DNA of 64,000 nt from the NCBI RefSeq assembly GCF_031583025.1, contig NZ_CP134062.1, forward strand, positions 3,224,001 through 3,288,000. Direction: 5' to 3'. The position numbers and the translations under genes were made by a program. This document shows positions 7,722 to 60,337 of this stretch, piece by piece. Within the stretch, counting starts at the first letter, position 1; each line of letters starts with the position of its first letter. The DNA comes from Mycobacterium sp. Z3061 (lineage in GTDB: Bacteria > Actinomycetota > Actinomycetes > Mycobacteriales > Mycobacteriaceae). The notes below the pieces were generated by a model, which saw nothing but the letters and a program-made list of their open reading frames with translations, did not search any database and had not been told where the DNA came from.

Positions 7722-8061
7722 CGATCGGTCGGTCTTGGGCTCAGTAGTGGCCAGCTGGCCGCCGACGCGCCCGAGGGTGCCGCGCACGGCCAGGAATCGA
7801 GCCTCAAGGTCAACATTAAGCCAGTGCAATGCCAGGGCTTCCCGCGACGCATACCGGTACCGGCGACCAGGATCAGGCGCGAAGAGCCGCCAGCTTCGAG
7901 CGGTGTCCTGCCACCGTCGACCGTTTGAGTGAGTGCTTGGAGGCCAATCAGTCCTCGCAGGCCTGATCGACAGTCATTTTGCAGGCAGCGACGTAGGTCC
8001 CGCTGGCCACACCACCGAGGCCAGTTCGGTTCGTGCCTTGGCCAGGTCGCCAGCCCCGGAT
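7722..8061 (-). pseudogene. Shattered tyrosine integrase (site-specific recombinase) remnant
   Basis: Reading the minus strand across three frames gives recognisable actinophage/ICE integrase pieces in the correct order. There is an arm/SAM-like N-terminal piece ([10 protein letters not shown], then [18 protein letters not shown], a TGA stop near 7950, LASKHSLKRSTVAGHRSKL). It is followed, after loss of the middle, by the catalytic-Arg segment VAGTGMRRG (about 7841-7867) and, shifted again, ALHWLNVDLEARFLAVRGTL and TTEPKTDRS. The His-x-x-Arg and Tyr boxes are missing. Dead gene. It lies next to tRNA-Pro, the expected position for an integrated element's int. Confidence 0.7.
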
Positions 8062-8254
8062 CGGTTCGCTGACAACCCCAGCGGCAGCGCGGCAGGCTCA
8101 GACTCCGCCGTCGGTTCAACATGCCGACTCCAGATCGCCGTCACGCCCCGGGAACCCTGTTTTGCCGGGATCATCTCGAAACCCCAAGATTTGCAACAGA
8201 GTTGGGATAAGTTCAAATACTTCGCGTCCAGCAGACGCTGTAATGGAGGCTTCC

Positions 8255-10387
8255 ATGTCACTTGTCATCGCAGCAACAGACACATTGGCGATGGCCGCAG
8301 CGAGTCTTGAGGACATCAGTTCATCGCTGACTGCGGCAACTAGTACGGCCGCCGGTCCGACCACCGGGCTGTTGGCCGCCGCCGGTGATGAGGTGTCGGC
8401 AGCCATCGCGTCGCTATTTTCTGGCCACGGTCAACAGTTCCAGCAGCTCAGCGCACGAGCGACGACACTCCACTCCCAGTTTGTACAAACCTTGAACAGC
8501 GCGGGGGGTGCGTATGCGGCCGCCGAGGCGGCCAATACTGAGCTGTTGTCCGTTCTGGAGCGCGACCTGCATAGTCTGGCGGCCTTTGACCCCGTGAAGG
8601 TGTTGACGGGGCGCCCGCTGATCGGTGACGGCGCCAACGGCGCGAACAGCACGACCCCCGGCGTGGCTGGCGGCGCGGGTGGGAAGGGCGGGTGGATTTT
8701 CGGCAGCGGTGGCAATGGTGGGTTCGGTGGGGCCGGCGCGGCCGGTGGGGCTGGCGGCTCGGCTGGGCTGTGGGGCCACGGCGGTAACGGAGGAGCGGGC
8801 GGCAACGCCATGGCCGCCGGCGGGAATGGCGGTAACGGCGGGACCGGTGGGGCCAATGGGCTGATCGGAGGGGGTAATGGCGGGATAGGTGGGTCCGGTG
8901 GGCTCGGTGGGGCTGGGGTGCCCGGTGTGACCGGTGGCAGCAATGGTGCAGGCGGTGCGGGCGGCCTTGGCGGTAACGGCGGCAATGGTGGGTCGAATAG
9001 GCAACTGTTCTCGCTGAACGGCAGCAGTGGTGCTGGCGGCCAGGGCGGCCTCGGTGGGGCAGGTGGGGCCGGCGCGGCGGGTGCGGGCGGCGTGCTTGGC
9101 GTGTCCGGAGTCGACGGTGGCCTCGGCGGCATCGGCGATGAGGGCGGTAACGGCGGAGCGGGCGGTAGCGGCGGGGCCGGCGGCTCCGCTGGCACCAACT
9201 ACTCGTTTATCGGCGGGCACCTGGGCGCAAACGGTACCAACGGCGACGGCGGCCACGGCGGCAGCGGCGGGCATGGCGGCACCGGCGGCAACGGCGCTGA
9301 CGCCACGACCGCGGGCAATGCCGGCGGCCAGGGCGGCGTCGGTGGCAACGGCGGTACCGCGGGTGCTGGCGGTCACGCCGGCAACGGCGCCGGGACCGCG
9401 GGCACCGCGGGCAACGCCGGCACCGGCGGGCTGGGCGGTACCGGCGGCGATGGCGGTAAGGGCTTCGACGGTGTGGCCGGCACGGGCACGAACGGGACCG
9501 ACGGCGGCGCGGGTGGCGCGGGCGGTAATGGCGGCAGTGCGGGCGTCGGGGGCACCAACGGCACCGGCGGCGTCGGCGGCGGAGGCGGCGGAGGCGGCAC
9601 CGGCGGCAGCATTACCGGGGGCGTCGCCGGGAAAGGCGGCGCCGGTGGCGACGGCGGCGCCGGCGGCGACGGTGGCCAAGGGGTCGCCGTGGCCGGTGGC
9701 GACGGTGGCCAGGGCGGTGCCGCTGGCGGGGGCGGCGGAGGCGGCACCGGCACGCGCGGCTCCTCTGGCGATGCCTTCGGGGGAGGCGGAGGTGGCGGAG
9801 GCGCCGGGGGCGCCGGTGGCAACGCGGGCACCGTCGGTGGCACAGGCGGGGCCAGCGGCACAGGCGGTAGCGGCGGCACCGGCGGGACCGCAACGGGCAA
9901 TTTCACCAACGGTGGCGGAGGCACCGGCGGCGGAGGCGGCGAAGGCGCCACCGCCAACAGCGCGGCGCCACCGGCGGAGGCGGCGGAGGCGGCGGCGGAG
10001 GCGGATGGGCTAGCTCCAACATTGTTAGCTCCGGCGGGGGCGGCGGAGGCGGCGGTGCGGCCGGCGCCGCGGGCGGTGCCGTCGGCGCTGGCGGCACTGG
10101 CGGCACCGCTACCGCCGGACGCCCTGGCGGTACCGGCGTCGGAGGCGGCGGAGCCCTTAGCGGTCCCGGCAACTCCGGCGGCGGCGGCGGTGGCGGCGGA
10201 AGCGCCGCCGGACCCTCAACCGGCCGCTCCGGCGACCCCGCCGCCGGGAGCGCCGGCGGCAGCGGTAACGGAGGCGGCGACGGCGGCAACGGCGCCGTCA
10301 CCCCCGGCGGAGGCGGGCAGGGCGGCGAAGGCGGCGAGTTCGTCGGCAGTGCCGGTGGTCACGGCCGGTCAGGCTAACACCGGCTAA
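8255..10387 (+). CDS. PE_PGRS family protein (frame change near the 3' end)
   Basis: Starts at ATG 8255 with TGGAGG upstream and gives a PE domain (residues 1-~95; ends [11 protein letters not shown], containing the YxxxE export motif), the linker [13 protein letters not shown] and a long Gly-Ala/Gly-Asn PGRS region. PE proteins are exported by ESX systems, usually ESX-5. After about 9958 the open frame turns into Ala/Pro-rich sequence, while the +1 frame carries on as Gly-rich PGRS ([11 protein letters not shown]...) to a TAA at 10375-10377. A single-base loss near 9958-9968, real or from assembly, is likely. Different from the two later PE_PGRS genes because no enzymatic domain follows. Confidence 0.85.
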
Positions 10388-10768
10388 CAAGACGCCTAAC
10401 TAAAAATCGAAGCCTGCCGAAGGTTCGCTCAATCGCCTGCTAAGCACACGGAAGAACAGGCGCAGCAGGGCGTTGCAATGTCCCTCGTAGTCCTCACTGG
10501 CGCGATATGGCCGAGGTCGAGGCTTCATTGGGGTGGTGGACTGCCGGTCCAGCTATCCGGTTTCTCGCAGAATTTGAGCTCTCATCGGTTCCCACGCTTC
10601 TGCTGCACGAACGGGTGGCAGTTTCGTTGCGCGGCCTCGTGGTCAGGAGTCGCGCTGCACCCGCGTTCACCGGGTGTGAGCAAACTCGCTCTGTAGCTCG
10701 CCGAAATAGCCGTCGTAGGCGACGACGACGCCGTCGAGGTCGAGTTGTTCGGGTAATTCATCGGGACG
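10388..10768 (+). other. Intergenic, no supported gene on the plus strand
   Basis: No convincing plus-strand coding unit. On the minus strand, 10673-10768 is an open continuation of the frame of the small gene at 10769-10957 beyond its TAA, encoding a plausible protein-like tail (DELPEQLDLDGVVVAYDGYF). Confidence 0.4.
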
Positions 10769-10957
10769 TTAGCGCACGATCAGATAGCCCACCGTTGTGG
10801 CGACGACGCGTGCTTCGTCCGCATCGGGTCCAGCCACACGGACCACGACCTCCGTGTTGGCCCGCATCTGGATGGTGACGAGGTCGTCGTCCTGGGCGGC
10901 ACGGATGAGGTGTTCGTGATCGCTGAGAGCTTCGACGCCCGCGTGGTTGACGTTCAT
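10769..10957 (-). CDS. Small hypothetical protein (62 aa), possibly truncated by a stop
   Basis: ATG at 10957 is preceded by a strong AAAGGAG ribosome binding site 7 nt away. The protein starts MNVNHAGVEALSDHEHLIRAA and ends VGYLIVR, soluble and mildly acidic, of no family I recognise. Immediately after the TAA the same frame stays open for 31 more codons with protein-like sequence, so the gene may once have been about 94 aa, or the codon could be read through. Sits among mobile-element debris. Confidence 0.5.
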   Translation of the reverse strand: MNVNHAGVEALSDHEHLIRAAQDDDLVTIQMRANTEVVVRVAGPDADEARVVATTVGYLIVR

Positions 10958-10978
10958 GTCCGCATCTCCTTTCGTGAG

Positions 10979-11195
10979 TCGTCGCTTGCTGATCGACTCT
11001 TACAGGCGAGCCCGGCGCTGCTGCGTGGTCTGCCGTCAGCGTTCATCCACGCTCTGATGGGCGTGGAAGCCGACGCCATCTGTGGCGCGGGCTACCGCCA
11101 GCGCAGCACGAGCGATTAACAGCCGCAACGGCTCCCGGTCTTGCGATTTCGACACGCGTGCGGGCCCTGTCGAGGTAGGGAGGTTCGGCATCCGA
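10979..11195 (+). pseudogene. IS256-family transposase fragment (N-terminal part, frameshifted)
   Basis: 10979-11119 encodes SLADRLLQASPALLRGLPSA, FIHALMGVEADAICGAGY, the conserved N-terminal segment of IS256/IS1081-type mutator transposases. After a one-base shift the frame from 11115 gives INSRNGSRSCDFDTRAGPVEV, matching the family VNSRNGYR.RDFDTRAGTVEV block, and then stops at 11196. The DDE catalytic region is absent. A decayed insertion sequence remnant. Confidence 0.7.
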
Positions 11196-11399
11196 TGACA
11201 ATGTCAGTCCTGCAAACCGCTGCCAGTTGAAGCCCGGCATAAGTTTGTAGCGCGCAGAAATCGAACGTGCTTCCCTCTGTGTTCCGCCAGCGCAAGGTGA
11301 GGGCCGAGATTTCCGCTGCCGCCGCCGCCCCCACCGCCGCCGCCGTTCGGGTTCTGGGGGGCGTTGACGAAACCGCTGGACGACTCCCGTGCCGATGTC

Positions 11400-12043
11400 G
11401 TGCGGCCTGCATCATGGCTGAATCCTTGACTCCGCCGAAGCCGAGGTCGTCCAGCGCGCGGATCACTTCGCTCGACGGGATACCGCGATAGAACGGTGCC
11501 GTTCCCGGTCCCGCATCGTTCGACGTCGACTCTGCGCTGTCCTCGACCACGAGGCCGATCACGCGACCGTCCTGCGCAACGATCGGCCCGCCGCTGTTGC
11601 CCGACCGCGCGATGGCCGAGTATAGGAAGATCTTCTGTCGTGCCTTCAAGATATTTCGCGAGCTTTTGGTCATGTGTTGAGAACGACCAAATCCAAATCC
11701 GTTGGTCGTAGCTCGACGTCAGAGTTGCGCACCATGATTTTTGAGGCCGACTTGTTTTTACGGCTCAGCTCACCGCATTGCCGGTGATGTGCGTTATCGC
11801 ACCTACGTCGGTACCCGATATCGCAATAGTTACTCAGTCCCCGAGGCGTTGGTAAGTGGTCGTTGTACCGGTCTGTCCATCGCACTCGGTACCGCCCGTT
11901 GCAGTGTCCCAGCCGCGACCCGTAATTAAGGCAATGGGATTTTGTGGCGGGTCGGGAAGGGGAAATTCCGCCGACGAGCCGATGCCGGCCAGAGTCGTGG
12001 CTGTCGCCGACATCGCCTCCGGCGCCGCGAGAAGAAATGACAT
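11400..12043 (-). pseudogene. Broken PE-family gene with trypsin-like serine protease remains
   Basis: On the minus strand, ATG 12043 (GGAGG upstream) starts a PE N-terminus, MSFLLAAPEAMSATATTLAG, which diverges after about 24 residues and stops at 11834. Further along, in other frames, come RPTDLDLVVLNT (like the beta strand after the catalytic Asp of HtrA/trypsin folds) and, from 11673, a segment with SAIARSGNSGGPIVAQDGRV, the GNSGGP serine motif, then GIPSSEVIRALDDLGFGG. No catalytic His is recognisable. Best read as a decayed PE-serine protease fusion, or a PE stub abutting a protease fragment. Confidence 0.55.
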
Positions 12044-12366
12044 TTCCGCCGTCCTCCACTGATCAGAGCGAATCGACTCGCACCCGACCACGGGGCGAAC
12101 CAAGCCAACCCGATATTTCATTTCGCCAGCGGCCGCGGTCGAGGGGGATTTCTACCCATTCCGACGGGCGAGCACGGGGGTGCGCCCAGTCCCGGTCGAG
12201 CCTTCTCATGACACTCCCGTGACCAATCCGTGATGGTTCCGTGACCATACTGAAAAGTATGTTACGGTGCCTGGGCGGCAGCCGTTGTGGCCGGGATCAC
12301 AGAGTCGTGAGGACGGCCGGCAGCCTGCGGTATCGGTGATCGGTCGTGCGATCAGGGAGTTATCTG
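12044..12366 (+). promoter_or_regulatory. Intergenic upstream of PE_PGRS-GH64, with phased CCGTGA repeats
   Basis: No gene. Three copies of CCGTGA start at 12217, 12228 and 12239, exactly 11 bp apart, and are followed by the inverted repeat CATACT-GAAA-AGTATG (12246-12261). This looks like an activator or repressor binding array for the downstream glucanase genes; no known mycobacterial regulator motif was recognised in it. Confidence 0.4.
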
Positions 12367-14340
12367 ATGGCGTTTGTACACGTGGGACCGCAGCGGGTGG
12401 GGGTTGCGGCAGCGGATTTGGTCAGGTTGGAGACGGTGATCAGCGCGGCCAATGCGACGGCGCGGGCGTCGACGACGCAGCTGCTGGCGGCAGCCGAGGA
12501 CGAGGTATCGGCGGCGGTCGCGTCGTTGTGGGGCGCGCATGGGCAGGCCTATCAGGCAATCAGCGCCCAGGCCGCGAAGTTCCACCAACAGTTTGTTCAG
12601 GCAATAAACGCGGGGGCTGGCGCTTACGCAGCCGCGGAGGCGACGAACGCCTCCCTAGTGCAAACCGCGTTGGACGTGATCAACGCACCCACGAACGCGT
12701 TGTTGGGCCGGCCGTTGATCGGTGACGGCGCCAACGGGGCAGCTGGGACCGGCCAGGACGGCGGGCCGGGCGGCCTGCTGTGGGGTAACGGCGGTGCCGG
12801 CGGATCCGGTGCGCCCGGAAAAACCGGTGGCGCCGGTGGGCCGGCGGGATTGTTCGGTAACGGTGGAACTGGCGGTGCCGGCGGCGTTGGCGTGACCGGC
12901 CTGACCGGGGCCGCGGGGGAGCGCGGCGCTATCGGCGGCACCGGCGGGGCGGGCGGGGTCGGCGGTCATGGCGGGCTGTTGTGGGGCAACGGGGGCGCCG
13001 GCGGGCTCGGCGGGGTCGGGGGCACGGGTGGATCGGGGGGTCCGGCCAATGGCGCGGGTGTCGTCGGTGGCGGTGGTCCCGGCGGCGCCGGTGGCCTCGG
13101 GGGCGCGGGTGGAGCGCCCGGACTGCTCGGCACTGCAGGTCCCGCCGGCCTCGACGGCAACCTCGGCGCCACCGGCGCGACCGGCACCGGCGGAGGCGGT
13201 GGCGGCGGAGGCATCGTCGTGCCCGGAGGTTTCGCCGAATACTTCGTCAACAACACCGGTTTGAGCGCCGACCAGATCTACGTGACCGAGATCGGCCAGA
13301 CGACACCCGGCCACTGGTCGTGGATCGACCAGAACGGCGTCGCGCACGCGATCGATCACAACGCCGCCAATGCTCCCGGTCACCTCACGAAGAACGGCGT
13401 GAATTACGCCAATATGTCATTCACGCTCGCGCAGGCGAACAACCTCGCCTCAATGCCGTCGGAGTTTCAGGGTGGCCGCATATTTCTGTCGATGAAGCAG
13501 CCGCTCTATATCGGCATCAGCTCCGACAATTCGGGCTGGGCGGGCCCCAACCCGACGAATCCTGCCGATCCCAACTACTCCACGGTTTACGACTGGTACG
13601 AGATGACTTTCAAGAACGGAGCAGTTCCGTTCGGCGGCAACACAACTCAGGTAGACCAGTTCGGATTCCCGTTCTCCTTCAACGTGACCCAGAACTCCAC
13701 CGGTTTTTCGGCCACCGCCGGCATGACTCTGTCGCGGGATCAGGTCTTCCAACAATTCGCGACCTCGGTCCCAGCCGAATTCCAGGGATTGGTTCTGCAC
13801 GATGCCACCGGCAATCCGCTGCGCATCGTCGCCCCGCGGACCATCCAGCCCGGAGCGCTGTCCACCTGGCTTGATCCATCGATCAACGACTTCTGGACGA
13901 CCTACCAGACCAACCAATTCAACTACCAGGGCGCCGGTTACACGGTGCATGGCAGCGTCGATGCCAGCAATCATTTCGTATATAGCGTGACCACCAGTGC
14001 GGGCAACACCACGACGTACTCGATGACGAAGCCCACAACGGCGCAAACCTTCGCCGCCAATGGCCCATTCGTCGGCAGTGGTCAACAGGGGGCTTTCCTG
14101 GCCGAACTCGACGCGGCGTTCAACCGCGGTGTGGCGACCTCGCCAAGCCAATGGGCCAACGTTGCCGCCTATTACCCGACGGGTGGGCGGTGGAACAACT
14201 TCGCACAGTTCTTCCACGCCAACAGCATCAACCACCTCGCCTACGGCTTTCCCTACGACGACGTGAACAGCCAGAGTTCGGTAGTCATCCTCGGCAACTC
14301 ACAGCCACCGACTCAATTGTCGTTCGACCTCCGAAATTGA
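12367..14340 (+). CDS. PE_PGRS protein with C-terminal GH64 beta-1,3-glucanase domain
   Basis: 657 aa. PE domain 1-~95 with an unusual start ([20 protein letters not shown]) and the export motif YAAAE at 87-91; linker ending [13 protein letters not shown] (112-124); short PGRS 125-~282 closed by a run of Gly; then ~285-657 a thaumatin-like GH64 fold: [46 protein letters not shown] and [14 protein letters not shown]. Glu412 (DWYEMTF) and Asp430 (TQVDQFG) fit the family acid/base pair. GH64 enzymes release laminari-oligosaccharides from beta-1,3-glucan. ESX-mediated export to the surface is predicted from the PE domain. Its N-terminal third is nearly the same as that of the next gene. Confidence 0.88.
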
Positions 14341-14382
14341 CGCGTTCCGAAACCCGTAGAACACGAATAAGGGAGCTGTCTG

Positions 14383-16035
14383 ATGGCACATGTAGTGGTG
14401 GGACCGCAGCGGGTGGGGATAGCGGCAGGGGATCTGGTGAGGTTGGGGTCGGTGATCGGCGCGGCCAACGCGACGGCCCGGGCGTCGACAACGCAGTTGC
14501 TCGCGGCAGCCGAGGATGAAGTGTCGGCGGCGGTTGCGGCGTTGTTCGGCGAGCATGGGCAGGCCTACCAGGCGATCAGTACGCAGGCTGCGCGGTTCCA
14601 CCAGCAGTTTGTGCAATCGATTAGCGCGGGGTCGGGCGCATATGCGGCCGCGGAAGCAACGAACGCCTCGCTGGTGCAAACCGCTTTGGACGTGATCAAT
14701 GCCCCCAGCAACGCGTTGCTGGGTCGTCCGCTGATCGGCAACGGCACCAACGGCACCGCGGGGACCGGCGAAGCCGGCGGGCCGGGCGGGCTGTTGTGGG
14801 GTAACGGCGGTGACGGCGGATCAGGGGCGCCCGGGCAGACGGGCGGCGCCGGCGGGGCGGCCGGTTTATTCGGTAACGGTGGAGCCGGGGGCGCCGGGGG
14901 AGGCGGGGTAACCGGCAAGACCGGGATCCCGGGTCAGATCGGCGGCGTCGGCGGCGGGGGTGGCGCTGGCGGGGCGGGCGGCCACGGCGGGCTGTTGTGG
15001 GGCAATGGGGGCGCCGGAGGTGTCGGCGGTGCCGGGGGCACCGGTGGAACCGGCGGCCCGACGAATCCCGCCGGCGTCGTGGGTGCAGGCGGGCCCGGCG
15101 GCGCGGGTGGCCTCGGCGGCGCGGGCGGGCCGGCCGGATTGTTCGGCACTGCCGGTCAGACGGGCGCCACCGGCGCTACCGGCGCGACCGGAAGCGGAGG
15201 CGGTGGAGGAGGTGGCGGCGGCGGCTTCACCACCATTTGGCGTGACGACTTCACCGGCGCCGCAGGCTCCCCGGTGAACGGCGCGAACTGGCTCTACGAC
15301 CTGGGCCACGGCTATCCCGGTGGCGCCAACAACTGGGGCACCGGCGAAATCGAGTCGATGACCAACAGCACCAACAACGTCTACCTCGACGGCAACGGCC
15401 ACCTGGCCATCAAGCCGATCCGAGACGCCGCCGGGAACTGGACCTCGGGCCGGATCGAGACGCAGCGCACCGACTTCGCGGCGCCGACCGGCGGCGTGCT
15501 GCGCATCGAGGCGTCGATTCAGCAGCCCAACGTCGACACCACCAACGGCAAGGGCTACTGGCCGGCCTTCTGGGCGCTCGGTGACGCTGCGCGGCCAGTC
15601 GGCGCCAGCAACTGGCCGAGCATCGGCGAGCTGGACATCATGGAGAGCATCAACGGCCGCAGTTCGGTGTTCGGCACCGTACATGGCGGCACCGCTCCCG
15701 GCGGGCCGTTCAACGAGTTCAACGGAATCGGTTCCGGCGAACGCCCGGTGACGGGCGCGCAAACCAGCTTCCACACCTACGCCATCGAACTGGACCGCAG
15801 CACCAGCGTCGAACAGTTGCGCTGGTACCTGGACGGCAACAACTATTTCTCCGTCAACGCCAACCAGGTCCCCGCGGCGGACTGGAACAACGCCACCCAT
15901 CACGGGTTCTTCGTCATCTTGAACGTGGCCATGGGCGGTGGCTTCCCGGCGGCATTCGGCGGCGGCCCAACCGCCGCAACGCTTTCCGGGCAACCGATGC
16001 TCGTCGACTACGTCTCGGTGTCCACCAAGGGCTGA
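14383..16035 (+). CDS. PE_PGRS protein with C-terminal GH16 beta-1,3-glucanase (laminarinase-like) domain
   Basis: 550 aa, 42 bp after the GH64 gene and paralogous to it in the PE part ([25 protein letters not shown] at 87-91; [13 protein letters not shown]) and short PGRS (125-~281). Residues ~283-550 form a GH16 beta-jelly roll: WRDDFTG start, [24 protein letters not shown] and the catalytic GELDIMES with Glu416 (nucleophile), Asp418 and Glu421 (acid/base). Endo-beta-1,3-glucanase activity is the best guess. With GH64 this makes a complementary pair for degrading beta-1,3-glucan of fungi, algae or plants. Confidence 0.9.
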
Positions 16036-16090: not shown

Positions 16091-17161
16091 GTGACAACTC
16101 CGCAAGGGCCGTCCCGCGGGAACCCGCCGGAATGGAATCGGCCCACCGAGCCCGGCCCCGGCCGGAGGCCGGCACCCCCGCCACCCCCGCCGCCTCCGTC
16201 GGGATCACCGACCCAACGGATCCCGCACGGAGGACGGCCCAATCCGCCGCCACCTCCGCCGAACCGGCCGCAACCGCCGGGCCGCCAGCAGCCGCCGGCC
16301 GCCCGCCCCTATGCGCCGGCAAACCCGCCCGCCCCGGCGCCGGATCAGCCCGTTTGGGGAGATCAGGCCACGACTCGGCTGCCCACTCCGCCGCCACCGC
16401 CGCCCGAGGACGCGCCGGCCGCAAAAACCCGCCGTCGGCGGCCGAAGGCCCTGGTGCTGGGCATCGTGCTGGCGGTCGTGGTGGCACTCGTGATCGGTGC
16501 GGAGTTGCTGATCCGTCACCTGGCGGGGAACAAGGTGGCGAGCGCTGTCGCGTGCGAGGTGGAGGACAGCGCCACCGTCTCCTTTGCCGCCATGCCTCCG
16601 ATGCTGTGGCAGTACCTCAGCGACTCCTACCCGAGCATCTCGGTGCGGACGGCCGGCAATCAAGTGCGCAGCGCCAAGGGTATGAAGGTCAGCATCGACA
16701 TCAAGGACCTCCGACTGAGCGACTCCGGCAACTCCAAGGGCACCATCGGCTCGCTGAACGGCACCATCACGTGGTCCTCCGACGGCATCAAGCAATCGGT
16801 CCAGGACGCCATTCCGGTCCTGGGCAGCTTTGTGACCAGCAAGGTCACCACCAATCCCGGCGACGGAACCATCGAATTGAAGGGGATGCTCGACAGCGTC
16901 ACCGTCAAGCCCCATATCGTCAACAACGGGCTGTCGTTGCAGGTGGTCAACCTGACTGCGCTGGGCTCGAAGATGTCGACGGACACGGTGCAGAGCAACC
17001 TGGACAGCCTCACGTCCAAGGCGACGCAGAATTATCCGGTGGGCATCCACGCCGACACCGTCAAGGTCACCGACAGCGGCCTGGAAGCCACGTTCTCGAC
17101 CACTAACGCGAGCATCCCAGCATCGTCATCGAACGGTCAGGACTGCTTCAGCGGGTTGTGA
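16091..17161 (+). CDS. Proline-rich DUF2993 (LmeA-like) membrane protein
   Basis: 356 aa with a cytosolic Pro-rich N-terminus (~1-110), basic KTRRRRPK, one transmembrane helix (~120-142) and a C-terminal DUF2993 domain outside, with KGMKVSIDIKDLRLS and GDGTIELKGML repeats typical of the family. LmeA-type proteins work in the envelope in lipoglycan/lipid processing. GTG start 55 bp after the GH16 gene; whether it is in that operon is unclear. Confidence 0.8.
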   Translation: MTTPQGPSRGNPPEWNRPTEPGPGRRPAPPPPPPPPSGSPTQRIPHGGRPNPPPPPPNRPQPPGRQQPPAARPYAPANPPAPAPDQPVWGDQATTRLPTPPPPPPEDAPAAKTRRRRPKALVLGIVLAVVVALVIGAELLIRHLAGNKVASAVACEVEDSATVSFAAMPPMLWQYLSDSYPSISVRTAGNQVRSAKGMKVSIDIKDLRLSDSGNSKGTIGSLNGTITWSSDGIKQSVQDAIPVLGSFVTSKVTTNPGDGTIELKGMLDSVTVKPHIVNNGLSLQVVNLTALGSKMSTDTVQSNLDSLTSKATQNYPVGIHADTVKVTDSGLEATFSTTNASIPASSSNGQDCFSGL

Positions 17162-57815: not shown

Positions 57816-58366
57816 ACGGCACCTCCTCGTGCTGACGGGTTCCACCCAATACTACGCCTCGTAGTAGAGGTCTCTGCCGGGTCGTGGCAACATACAACCC
57901 CGGCGCCGGCACGCGGACACACCCGATCTACGCGCAATTCTCGCGGCGTCAGCTAACGCAGTAGCACCTCGCCATGCGAATGGTCTCAATCCAGAAGGCG
58001 CCGTGGAATGGGTGCGCCGATACATATTGTTGAATTTGTCCAACCAATAGTCATACGAGTGTCCCAGAAATAGCTGCACCACCTGGCAATCTCTGCCAAG
58101 AACGCCGCGGTGCCTTCCCACGCCAGCCCAAAGTCGCAGCTCAACGCAATATCTACCGGCACAGCGGGATTGCCTCCAGTCGGAGCGAGCCGGCCGGAAT
58201 AATTGTCTGGATTAGTCGGCGCGAACGGTTGAAACTGGCGTCACTCTATGGCAGCCTTCGTGTCCGTGATGCAATCGTTATAGAGATCTGAGTGCGACCC
58301 CGTCTGAGACAGATATAAGACAGTTATGTGACTGTTATAAGACCGTGATTGAGCAAAGGATTGTGC
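57816..58366 (+). promoter_or_regulatory. Intergenic region controlling PE-GH12 and DUF4383
   Basis: No gene. TACTAC-GCCTC-GTAGTA (57850-57866) is an inverted repeat near the DUF4383 promoter. Close to the PE-GH12 start are CCGTGAT at 58264-58270 and 58343-58349, two ATAAGAC copies (about 58315 and 58337) and CAGT-TATGTG-ACTG (58321-58334). The AT-rich 58300-58350 stretch should hold the promoter. CCGTGAT is the same core as the repeats before PE_PGRS-GH64. Confidence 0.4.
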
Positions 58367-60337
58367 ATGTCGTATGTGATCGCGACCCCCGAAGCGCTGG
58401 CTGCGGCGGTGACGGATATCGCCGGAATCGGATCCTCGCTCAGCGCCGCCAATGCCGCGGCAGCGGTTCCGACCACCGAGATTCTGGCCGCCGCCGCCGA
58501 TGAGATATCAACCGCCGTCGCCTCGTTGTTCGGCGCCCACGCGCTGGACTATCAGTCACTGAGCGCCCGGGTGGCGTCTTTTCAGGCCCAGTTCATGGAC
58601 TCTCTCTTCGCCGGCGCGCAACGGTATGCCGGCGCCGAGTTGCTCAACGGTTCGCTGCTGCGCGGCGTTGCGGAGCGGCTGCTGGGCGGCGGACGGCCGG
58701 GCAACGACGGTTCGAGTGCGGGATCCGCGAGCGCCGAGGCGACCGGTGCGGCGACGAGCCAGCCGACCGGCACGACGGCGAAGACAACGGCAGCCGCCGC
58801 CACCGCCACCGCGACGCCGGCGTCGGGCGGCGCGACCGGCACGGGGATAAAGGCGACATATGCCACCACATCGCAGTGGAACAGCGGATTCGTCGCCAAC
58901 TACACGATCACCAACACCGGCACAACGCCGTTGACCAACTGGCAGCTCCAATTCAGCCTGCCCACAGGCGAATCCGTGGCGAACCTGTGGAACGGACACG
59001 TCACGCAGTCCGGCACGCAGTACACGGTCACCCCGCACAGCTACAACGCCACCATCGCTCCCGGCGACTCGGTCACCGTCGGATTCCAGGGCGCTCAGTC
59101 TGGGACCTATTCACCGCCGACCAATGTGTCGATCGGCGGTCAGCCGGTCATCGGCGGTCCGACCCCGCCCGTGACGACCCCGCCGGTGACGACCCCGCCC
59201 GTCACGACGCCGCCGGTGACGACACCGCCGGTCACCACCCCACCGGTCACGACGCCGCCGGCCGGCACCGGCGGACTGACGGCCGCATATACGGCGACGT
59301 CGCAGTGGAACAGCGGATTCAACGGGAACTATGCGATCACGAATTCAGGTACCACGCCGCTGAGCAACTGGAACCTCCAATTCGACCTCCCCGCAAACGA
59401 ATCCATCACCAACCTGTGGAATGGTCAGGTCACTCACACCGGCTCGCACTACACGGTGACCCCGGCGAGCTACAACGGCACGATCGCGCCCGGCGGATCG
59501 GTCAATGTCGGTTTCCAGGCGTCGCAGACGGGTTCCTACGGCGCACCAAGCAACCTGCTGATCAACGGTCAACCGGTGACGGGCGGGTCCACCACACCGA
59601 CTCCGCCGACGACCACCCCGCCGACCACCACCCCGCCGACCACCACACCGCCGACCGGCGGCACCCTCATCTCCAACCAGTACGGGACCACCACGGTCGG
59701 CAACGCCTATGTCGTGCAGAACAACGCGTGGAACAACCCGGGCGGACAGGCGATCACCGTCAGCCAGACCGGCTTCACCATCACCACTGAAAACGGTTCT
59801 GCCCCGACCAACGGCGCCCCGCTGGGTTACCCGTCCATCTATACGGGCTGGCACTACGGCACGGGTTCACCAGGCACGATCCTGCCGATACAGCTGGGCC
59901 AGATTCAGACGGCGACCAGCAGCATCAGCTACACCTATCCAACCAGCGGGATCTACGACGCCGCCTACGACATCTGGCTGAACCCCACGCCCATCACCAC
60001 CGGCGTCAACCAGCAGGAAGTGATGATCTGGTTCAACCACACCGGCCCCATTCAGCCGGTCGGCTCGGTGGTGGGCAATGCGACCATCGACGGGCAGAAC
60101 TTCGCGGTGTGGAAGGGCAGCAACGGCCAGAACAACGTGGTGTCGTATGTGGCGAACTCGCCGATCACCACGTGGAACAGTTTCGATGTGATGGGTTTCA
60201 TCGACAACACCCAGACGTGGGAGCCGGTGACCGACTCGTGGTACCTGACCAGCATCCAGGCCGGCTTCGAGCCGTGGAGCGGCAGTGTCGGCGCGGGCGT
60301 CAACAACTTCTCCGCCAGCATCAACGGCCACAACTGA
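58367..60337 (+). CDS. PE-domain cellulase: PE-CBM2-CBM2-GH12
   Basis: 656 aa from ATG 58367 (AAAGGA upstream). PE domain 1-~98 with YAGAE (87-91); Ala/Thr linker; CBM2a cellulose-binding modules at 160-263 and 303-407, each with QWNSGF, NWxLQF and LWNG tryptophans; Pro-Thr linkers between them (repeated TPPVT at 266-298, TPPTT at 411-430); GH12 endoglucanase 433-656 with nucleophile Glu551 (NQQEVMIWF) and acid/base Glu635 (AGFEPWSG). Intact. M. tuberculosis has only a split remnant (PE10-celA2a-celA2b). Predicted ESX-exported beta-1,4-glucanase. Confidence 0.92.
   Translation: MSYVIATPEALAAAVTDIAGIGSSLSAANAAAAVPTTEILAAAADEISTAVASLFGAHALDYQSLSARVASFQAQFMDSLFAGAQRYAGAELLNGSLLRGVAERLLGGGRPGNDGSSAGSASAEATGAATSQPTGTTAKTTAAAATATATPASGGATGTGIKATYATTSQWNSGFVANYTITNTGTTPLTNWQLQFSLPTGESVANLWNGHVTQSGTQYTVTPHSYNATIAPGDSVTVGFQGAQSGTYSPPTNVSIGGQPVIGGPTPPVTTPPVTTPPVTTPPVTTPPVTTPPVTTPPAGTGGLTAAYTATSQWNSGFNGNYAITNSGTTPLSNWNLQFDLPANESITNLWNGQVTHTGSHYTVTPASYNGTIAPGGSVNVGFQASQTGSYGAPSNLLINGQPVTGGSTTPTPPTTTPPTTTPPTTTPPTGGTLISNQYGTTTVGNAYVVQNNAWNNPGGQAITVSQTGFTITTENGSAPTNGAPLGYPSIYTGWHYGTGSPGTILPIQLGQIQTATSSISYTYPTSGIYDAAYDIWLNPTPITTGVNQQEVMIWFNHTGPIQPVGSVVGNATIDGQNFAVWKGSNGQNNVVSYVANSPITTWNSFDVMGFIDNTQTWEPVTDSWYLTSIQAGFEPWSGSVGAGVNNFSASINGHN

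Follow-up and report, generated by a model that had tools for sequence, protein, structure and literature searches.

The locus described here raises the question of why two neighbouring mycobacterial genes share a PE_PGRS-type front half and end in unrelated enzyme domains. The two genes lie in a stretch of 64,000 nucleotides (hereafter the window) of Mycobacterium sp. Z3061 (NZ_CP134062.1, positions 3,224,001 to 3,288,000), whose genome is a single contig of 6.79 Mb, coded G000 in our genome sample. Gene 1 (12367..14340, plus strand) encodes a protein of 657 amino acids (aa) and gene 2 (14383..16035, plus strand) one of 550 aa. Both consist of a PE domain, a GRPLI/Gly-rich hinge and a glycoside hydrolase domain, of family GH64 in the first and GH16 in the second, as identified from the open reading frames, Pfam and, for GH16, phmmer. 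The coordinates and the two domain types proposed in an initial annotation of this DNA proved exact. Both frames start with ATG, and only 42 bases (14341..14382) separate the stop codon of gene 1 from the ATG of gene 2. This gap contains a ribosome-binding-like AGGGAG, and the start codons of genes 1 and 2 are preceded by similar bases, GGGAGTTATCTG and GGGAGCTGTCTG. No terminator-like site was found between the genes on the coding strand in a promoter and terminator scan. The reading that we consider likely is a small operon whose two products are endo-beta-1,3-glucanases displayed on the cell surface, exported through ESX-5 and acting on polymers outside the cell. The evidence comes from domains, residues, gene order, trees, selection and module similarity.

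The C-terminal part of protein 1 is assigned to GH64 and is a predicted beta-1,3-glucanase. Pfam model PF16483 (GH64) matched residues 293-646 at 3.5e-66 (224.4 bits for a cut-off of 27), with model positions 7-364 of 370 covered; the extent used in searches was 13216..14337. An AlphaFold2 model of the domain (pLDDT 92.4) superposed on solved GH64 enzymes with TM scores of 0.86 (5h4e) and 0.79 (LPHase, 3gd0), and in a fold search six GH64 entries ranked first, plant thaumatin-like proteins being weaker. The residues named as catalytic in the initial annotation, Glu412 (codon 13600..13602) and Asp430 (13654..13656), are correctly numbered and invariant across 42 rows of the GH64 alignment. They align with the positions inferred as Glu154 and Asp170 of LPHase, whose residue roles, these two being catalytic, are described in section 14 of PMC4758615. 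Chain 5h9y shows Ala at the E412-aligned site, where the near-identical chain 5h9x has Glu. Fold and catalytic Glu/Asp are thus common to protein 1 and the LPHase of Streptomyces matensis (PDB 3gd0/3gd9), but identity to 3gd0 in the fold alignment is 23% and two residues of the +5 subsite differ. The S. matensis enzyme is presumably secreted and without PE. Sugar binding by LPHase is attributed to Thr156, Asn158, Trp163 and Thr167, Asn158 and Trp163 being two of the residues named for the +5 subsite (PMC4758615). Read by eye next to an alignment gap, both Thr residues align with Thr in protein 1, Asn158 with Lys and Trp163 with Pro. The laminaripentaose product length is therefore not transferable from LPHase to protein 1, and the defined laminari-oligomers that had been expected from the GH64 enzyme are not secured.

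The C-terminal part of protein 2 (15223..16032) is assigned to GH16, again as a predicted beta-1,3-glucanase. The Pfam GH16 model PF00722 did not report protein 2 even at E<=1; it does report a relative of this domain in L048, a locus of a Ktedonobacteraceae metagenome-assembled genome (MAG). Because of this, the assignment rests on phmmer, in which the whole catalytic domain matched PDB chain 3dgt, an endo-1,3-beta-glucanase, at 3.8e-104, and 31 further distinct sequences matched at 0.001 or better. The GH16 call of the initial annotation was therefore upheld by phmmer and not by Pfam. The 3dgt chain has no PE part and keeps the ExDxxE motif, which in protein 2 reads E416-x-D418-xx-E421, with E416, D418 and E421 invariant in 24 GH16 rows. 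The residue numbers Glu416 (codon 15628..15630) and Glu421 (15643..15645) had been given correctly, and no loss of a catalytic Glu was seen in the alignments. The two glutamates would act as nucleophile and acid/base, respectively, these roles being as given for Rv0315, a mycobacterial GH16 protein (PMC4606783). W411, also invariant in the 24 rows, sits five residues ahead of the nucleophile, as does Trp264 ahead of Glu269 in ZgLamA. The AlphaFold2 model of the domain (pLDDT 87.1) consists mainly of strands, with two loops below 50.

The front halves carry the features of exported PE proteins. Pfam placed a PE domain at residues 4-94 in both proteins, at 3e-28 in protein 1 (12376..12648) and 4.1e-30 in protein 2 (14392..14664), with YAAAE, of the YxxxD/E type, after the PE helices. 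In gene 1, GRPLIG at residue 114 and the hinge behind it together span 12706..13215. The front half of gene 2 is of the same kind, and its GRPLIG and hinge (14722..15222) are paralogous to their counterparts in gene 1 as far as roughly the junction with the catalytic domain. YxxxE and GRPLIG were kept in all 23 PE-GH64 and PE-GH16 genes examined, the window's two included, and Gly makes up 49-55% of the 150 residues ahead of GH64 in the PE-bearing relatives. The genome contains six EccB genes. At the one EccB locus inspected, the order is EccB, EccC (FtsK/SpoIIIE), PPE, PE, PPE, PPE, PE and two WXG100 genes, which we take to be the ESX-5 order; from these genes and their order we call a putative ESX-5-type locus. 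A PecA-type domain (PF20729) was present in 3 of 10 PE frames scanned by Pfam. In M. marinum, PE_PGRS proteins are described as leaving the cell via ESX-5 and as being processed by PecA once at the surface (PMC6819658). The PE/GRPLI part is described elsewhere as sufficient to bring a protein to the surface (PMC7550000). The ESX-5-exported LipY and PecA show the same design of PE, linker and C-terminal enzyme (PMC6819658), but they are a lipase and a protease, not glycosidases, and not two enzymes for one substrate. Signals and locus are thus consistent with the probable ESX-5 targeting suggested in the initial annotation.

From these data we infer that the two genes are co-transcribed, and likewise the following scheme of how the proteins are exported and processed, what they cut and where, and in which order the evolutionary steps occurred. 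With its YxxxE, the PE domain would direct each protein into ESX-5 export. The PE part may then be cut off by a PecA-like protease, while the GRPLI/Gly-rich hinge would keep the enzyme anchored at the outer membrane, its catalytic domain facing outwards. GH64, by direct displacement (E412, D430), and GH16, as a retaining enzyme with E416 as nucleophile and E421 as acid/base, would attack the same type of chain differently. Their substrate is most likely extracellular, a beta-1,3-glucan from fungi, algae or plants or from the cysts of amoebae. As to their history, a resident mycobacterial GH64 gene would have exchanged a non-PE, probably Sec-type, leader for PE_PGRS, and a copy of the PE_PGRS module would then have been joined to a horizontally acquired GH16.

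The pairing recurs in the genus. Among 396 genus genomes, one of which (G006) is labelled as the same species as the window genome, GH64 relatives were found in 31 and GH16 relatives of any distance in 120. Close full-length GH16 genes (at least 76% identity) numbered ten, two each in G000, G047 and G203 and one each in G006, G105, G120 and G228. Eight of these stand directly behind a same-strand GH64 gene. The other two (G047:C28 and G006:C327) start less than 290 bases from the end of a contig, too near for a judgement, so that the GH64-then-GH16 order is found in 8 of 8 assessable cases; the GH64 contig of G006 ends inside a following PE gene. Of the 8 paired GH64 genes, 6 have a readable PE front, the exceptions being those of G105 and of G120, whose contig begins within the gene; of the 8 paired GH16 genes, 7 have one, that of G105 again excepted. 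Other copies in the window's own genome, identified by BLAST, are a second pair (G000:C1 6505282-6508072) and, unpaired, a third PE-GH64 gene (4430645-4431757). In G216 (L100, G216:C431), a 60-aa frame at 8546-8725 contains a 52-residue remnant of the GH16 tail with 82-83% identity, and no GH64 match was found in that genome.

Downstream of the window pair, the flank is conserved in G228, G120 and G047, and a recent genomic island was rejected on this ground; in G203 and G105 only the genes match. Ratios of non-synonymous to synonymous substitution (dN/dS) were 0.07-0.14 in 12 close comparisons (6 GH64, 6 GH16) and 0.18-0.30 in 7 more distant ones (two between paralogues, two with a frame-broken pair in G105), all 19 being below 0.31. 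Both catalytic domains are under purifying selection. On this ground, together with the second pair in the genome, an assembly or chance artefact was rejected, and repeated co-location with purifying selection supports a functional pairing, beyond chance.

Several observations nevertheless weigh against an operon for two active, displayed glucanases. One concerns activity: Rv0315 has both GH16 glutamates yet is reported inactive (PMC4606783), so that conserved residues alone are no proof of activity. Both domains might then be catalytically silent surface antigens or binders, like Rv0315, for which neither activity nor laminarin binding was detected (PMC4606783); PE_PGRS proteins are indeed described as surface-exposed antigens (PMC7550000). 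We regard this as unlikely. Rv0315 and its orthologues, L216 in this genome, share the GH16 family and ExDxxE with protein 2, but they form a different branch, at 35% identity, whereas PE-GH16 is close to 3dgt and keeps the subsite Trp that is absent from Rv0315; no activity was seen in Rv0315, which is without that Trp (PMC4606783), and L216 has Ser at the W411 position by our own count. For GH64, the invariance of the catalytic pair in 42 rows argues in the same direction.

Other points on the unfavourable side concern expression, hinge and distribution. The coding-strand scan found no sigma-70-like promoter, other promoter types being outside its reach. The Pfam PGRS model scored 19.9 bits on the hinge of protein 1 (cut-off 27) and did not match that of protein 2. 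The pair is rare, full-length GH16 of the close clade being present in 7 of 396 genus genomes. Finally, in G105 (L088, G105:C1) the full pair DNA is present at 8476-12316, but in each of the two genes the frame of the PE part is not that of the catalytic part. Such a broken pair would be expected if these were chance fusions or decaying leftovers, that is PE_PGRS genes with accidental glucanase tails, and the short GH16 remnant of G216 could be read likewise. So could G237, which has a PE-GH64 gene without close GH16 and, about 4 kb ahead of it, the window's upstream flank (75-2199), an arrangement meaning that GH16 was either gained later or lost in G237. Chance or decay is nevertheless very improbable given the low dN/dS values of the close comparisons, the order kept in 8 of 8 cases, the second full pair in the genome, and the downstream flank shared with G228, G120 and G047.

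GH16-GH64 neighbours without PE were also found. In L048 (Ktedonobacteraceae MAG), a GH16 gene (63% identity) adjoins a GH64 gene (44%). Among 73 GH64-bearing non-mycobacterial genomes of the class, visual inspection of the match tables for neighbours on the same contig and no more than 5 kb apart gave three, G492, G585 and G634, which were then confirmed on DNA; the other 70 have no GH16 neighbour, a further unfavourable count for a functional pairing. Three Streptomyces plasmids (NBC_01276, S. lavendulae and S. yangpuensis) also carry such neighbours. In all seven non-PE pairs GH16 stands ahead of GH64, the reverse of the mycobacterial order, and five of them have a GH16 of distant type (35-37% identity), nearer ones being found only in G634 (55-56%) and L048. 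The reversed order and the distant type argue against a common origin of PE and non-PE pairs. We conclude that GH16-GH64 pairing outside PE is rare but recurrent. In a mycobacterial MAG of 780 contigs with 6% contamination, a single frame of 608 aa joins GH64 to another kind of GH16 (L060/L099, G347:C243, 3-1826). Like the seven pairs, this fusion brings together the same two families, and no PE was seen in any of the eight. A plasmid search found no mycobacterial GH64 among 11 records, from which records near the window's own genome were possibly left out.

Trees of the two domains, with 63 rows for GH64 and 54 for GH16, point to different origins. In the GH64 tree, the PE-type sequences, together with L039 and L013, whose fronts are missing or broken, form one 19-row clade (100/99) nested within a 40-row mycobacterial clade (100/99). 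PE-GH64 is thus placed by its sequence inside mycobacterial GH64. The other 21 mycobacterial rows gave no PE match, L024 being little informative with only 46 residues ahead of the domain. Presence of PE follows GH64 identity: at 71% or more PE is present (except in L010/L039 and G105), and at 65% or less it is absent. Of five non-PE GH64 proteins scanned with Pfam, L018 and L045 have Ig/cadherin-type repeats above cut-off, L025 just below, and L019 and L026 none; several non-PE proteins show, by eye, a leader-like stretch. The N-terminal half of the GH64 protein of L018 (1495-4110, minus strand) resembles a GH17-type glucanase by eye, and Pfam gave no such match.

In the GH16 tree, the ten PE-linked rows (100/99) fall within a 27-row clade (100/100) of class genomes and L048, which is from the Chloroflexota. 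A Streptomyces plasmid (S. fungicidicus) carries a GH16 at 62.6% identity. Other mycobacterial GH16 sequences lie outside the PE-GH16 clade, with at most 44% identity in the match list. The Rv0315-like L216 is far off on a long branch, and its tree position and low identity to PE-GH16 rule out derivation of the domain from the mycobacterial Rv0315 line. Since PE-GH16 belongs to another GH16 clade of actinomycetes, it was probably gained by horizontal transfer. Long branches were flagged in both trees. In that of GH64 the flagged join opposes nine class rows to 44 rows that include the mycobacterial ones, and has no bearing on the inner clades relied on here.

The PE_PGRS modules have a history of their own. 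The two PE parts of the window had been called nearly identical. This description was rejected for the window copy, where they are 85% identical in residues, and PE plus hinge 79% in DNA, a degree better described as similar. It holds for the first pair of G203, in which PE residues are identical and the DNA is identical over about the first 720 bases. PE parts of the G228 pair are 95% identical in residues. Between genomes, the window modules show 76-79% identity in PE residues and 80% in DNA with those of G228, and 86% and 81% with the GH16 gene of G120. In the second pair type (G000, G047, G203), the modules of a pair are 60-64% alike in PE residues and 70-73% in DNA, and counterpart modules across genomes 88-89% in DNA. 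Modules within a pair can thus be as alike as their counterparts elsewhere, or more so. Similarity between genes 1 and 2 breaks off close to where the catalytic part joins (13189-13215 and 15168-15225 of the window). These identities fit the copying of a PE_PGRS front half to a new enzyme and, in some pairs, subsequent gene conversion or repeated replacement. Strong forks were 2 of 19 in the PE tree, and in the catalytic trees the first pair of G203 and that of the window do not form one group; it is therefore on the identities that module exchange rests.

What would be the target of the two enzymes? A glucan-like host polymer, one of the targets considered initially, is supported by nothing in our data. 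The enzymes could also be directed at the mycobacterium's own matrix, a glycan of its biofilm or envelope, instead of at other organisms, since PE_PGRS display would put them at the cell's own surface. To our knowledge, however, these mycobacterial species make no beta-1,3-glucan, and the PE-linked cellulase- and chitinase-type proteins of the same genome, described below, suit foreign cellulose and chitin. ESX-5 is reported to influence capsule integrity via PPE10, but the mycobacterial capsular glucan is described in the same paper as an alpha-glucan (PMC4900558), which makes the own capsule an unlikely substrate. We hold action on the own matrix to be quite improbable. Fungal walls would suit the enzymes, as the GH64 enzyme Quantazyme and the GH16 enzyme PfLam16A both degrade the wall glucan of fission yeast (PMC8254974). 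Since mutual help between the two families is not shown in the account given there, we propose their complementarity as a hypothesis.

Both enzymes may also be active with another main role, namely breaching amoebal cyst or algal and plant walls rather than fungal ones. Acanthamoeba walls contain beta-1,3-glucan, and the PE-GH12 and PE-GH18 proteins of the same genome would fit such walls. Environmental mycobacteria are described as sitting in the amoebal exocyst, and an action on cyst walls has been suggested for cellulases of the M. tuberculosis complex (PMC3108610). As no sequence feature distinguishes amoebal from fungal or algal beta-1,3-glucan, we give this role a real chance, while leaning against it.

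The pair is part of a wider set. A PE protein of the window that carries two CBM2 domains and one of GH12 (58349-60334, plus strand; PF01670 at 2.1e-43) is of cellulase type. Elsewhere in the genome, two chitinase-like proteins were found, PE-GH18 (L167:5198-6862, plus strand; 31.5 bits) and PE-2xCBM2-GH18 (L203:317-2872, minus strand; 29.7 bits), both just above the Pfam GH18 cut-off of 29.6. The genome thus contains at least eight PE-linked glycosidases (three GH64, two GH16, two GH18 and one GH12), so that the PE-targeted system is wider than the pair to which it had been ascribed. A PE census gave 150 matches (150 of the 233 first-look candidates scored), and 88 stretches were examined, most short-frame PE genes being left out. 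With the window these contain 139 PE frames, 61 of which have non-Gly-rich tails of at least 100 aa, many plainly out-of-frame Gly-rich code. Pfam was run on 12 of the 139 (the window's two and ten others), and separately on one further window PE frame; with this partial coverage, eight is a minimum. Two GH3 genes are also present and could process oligomers further.

PE proteins with such domains are not without precedent. Chitinase, GH12, CBD and GH64 domains were named in PE proteins in PMC4758615, with M. gordonae among the species with chitinase. The PE protein with an LPHase-like (GH64) domain predicted there in 2016, WP_012394280.1 of M. marinum, has PE and GH64 with the conserved catalytic pair, as in protein 1 (PMC4758615). 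No mention of GH16 was found in the main text of that paper, and no analysis of a tandem, of origin or of selection in its section 14 and related passages. In the open-licence literature we found no PE-GH16, no tandem, no foreign origin of the GH16 part and no module exchange. The view that no mycobacterial system of this kind is established therefore needs correction for PE-GH64, already known as a prediction, and stands for PE-GH16 and the pairing, which are apparently new.

The surroundings of the pair in the window are as follows. Directly behind it (16091-17161, plus strand) lies a gene for an LmeA-like protein (PF11209 at 2.1e-19) with a Pro-rich front half. Ahead of it, a PE_PGRS gene with both PE and PGRS matches (7997-10384, plus strand) leaves Gly-rich code at about residue 664 and is probably frameshifted, and a trypsin-like fragment (11116-11670, minus strand; Trypsin_2 at 5.9e-5, below the Pfam cut-off) is possibly a broken serine protease gene.

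The function of PE_PGRS proteins is a long-standing question, approached mostly through M. tuberculosis. Here the C-terminal enzyme parts have obvious and cheap assays (laminarin, curdlan, yeast walls) and the export route is testable, while the ecology, with fungi, algae and amoebae in water, gives a reason for such proteins outside infection. In a wider and more tentative reading, which we rate somewhat below an even chance, PE_PGRS would be a plug-in chassis for surface display in slow-growing environmental mycobacteria. Resident GH64, acquired GH16, PE-GH12 and PE-GH18 would be mounted on one export-and-anchor module, its copies within a pair being kept alike by gene conversion. Delivered by a type VII secretion system, they would make up an array, bound to the cell, that is directed at the beta-1,3-glucan, chitin and cellulose of eukaryotic walls. 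The locus shows PE_PGRS modules put to new use on a domain of probably horizontal origin, with sequence exchange keeping them alike. If the proposed function is true, ESX-5 would be a route for polysaccharide-degrading enzymes.

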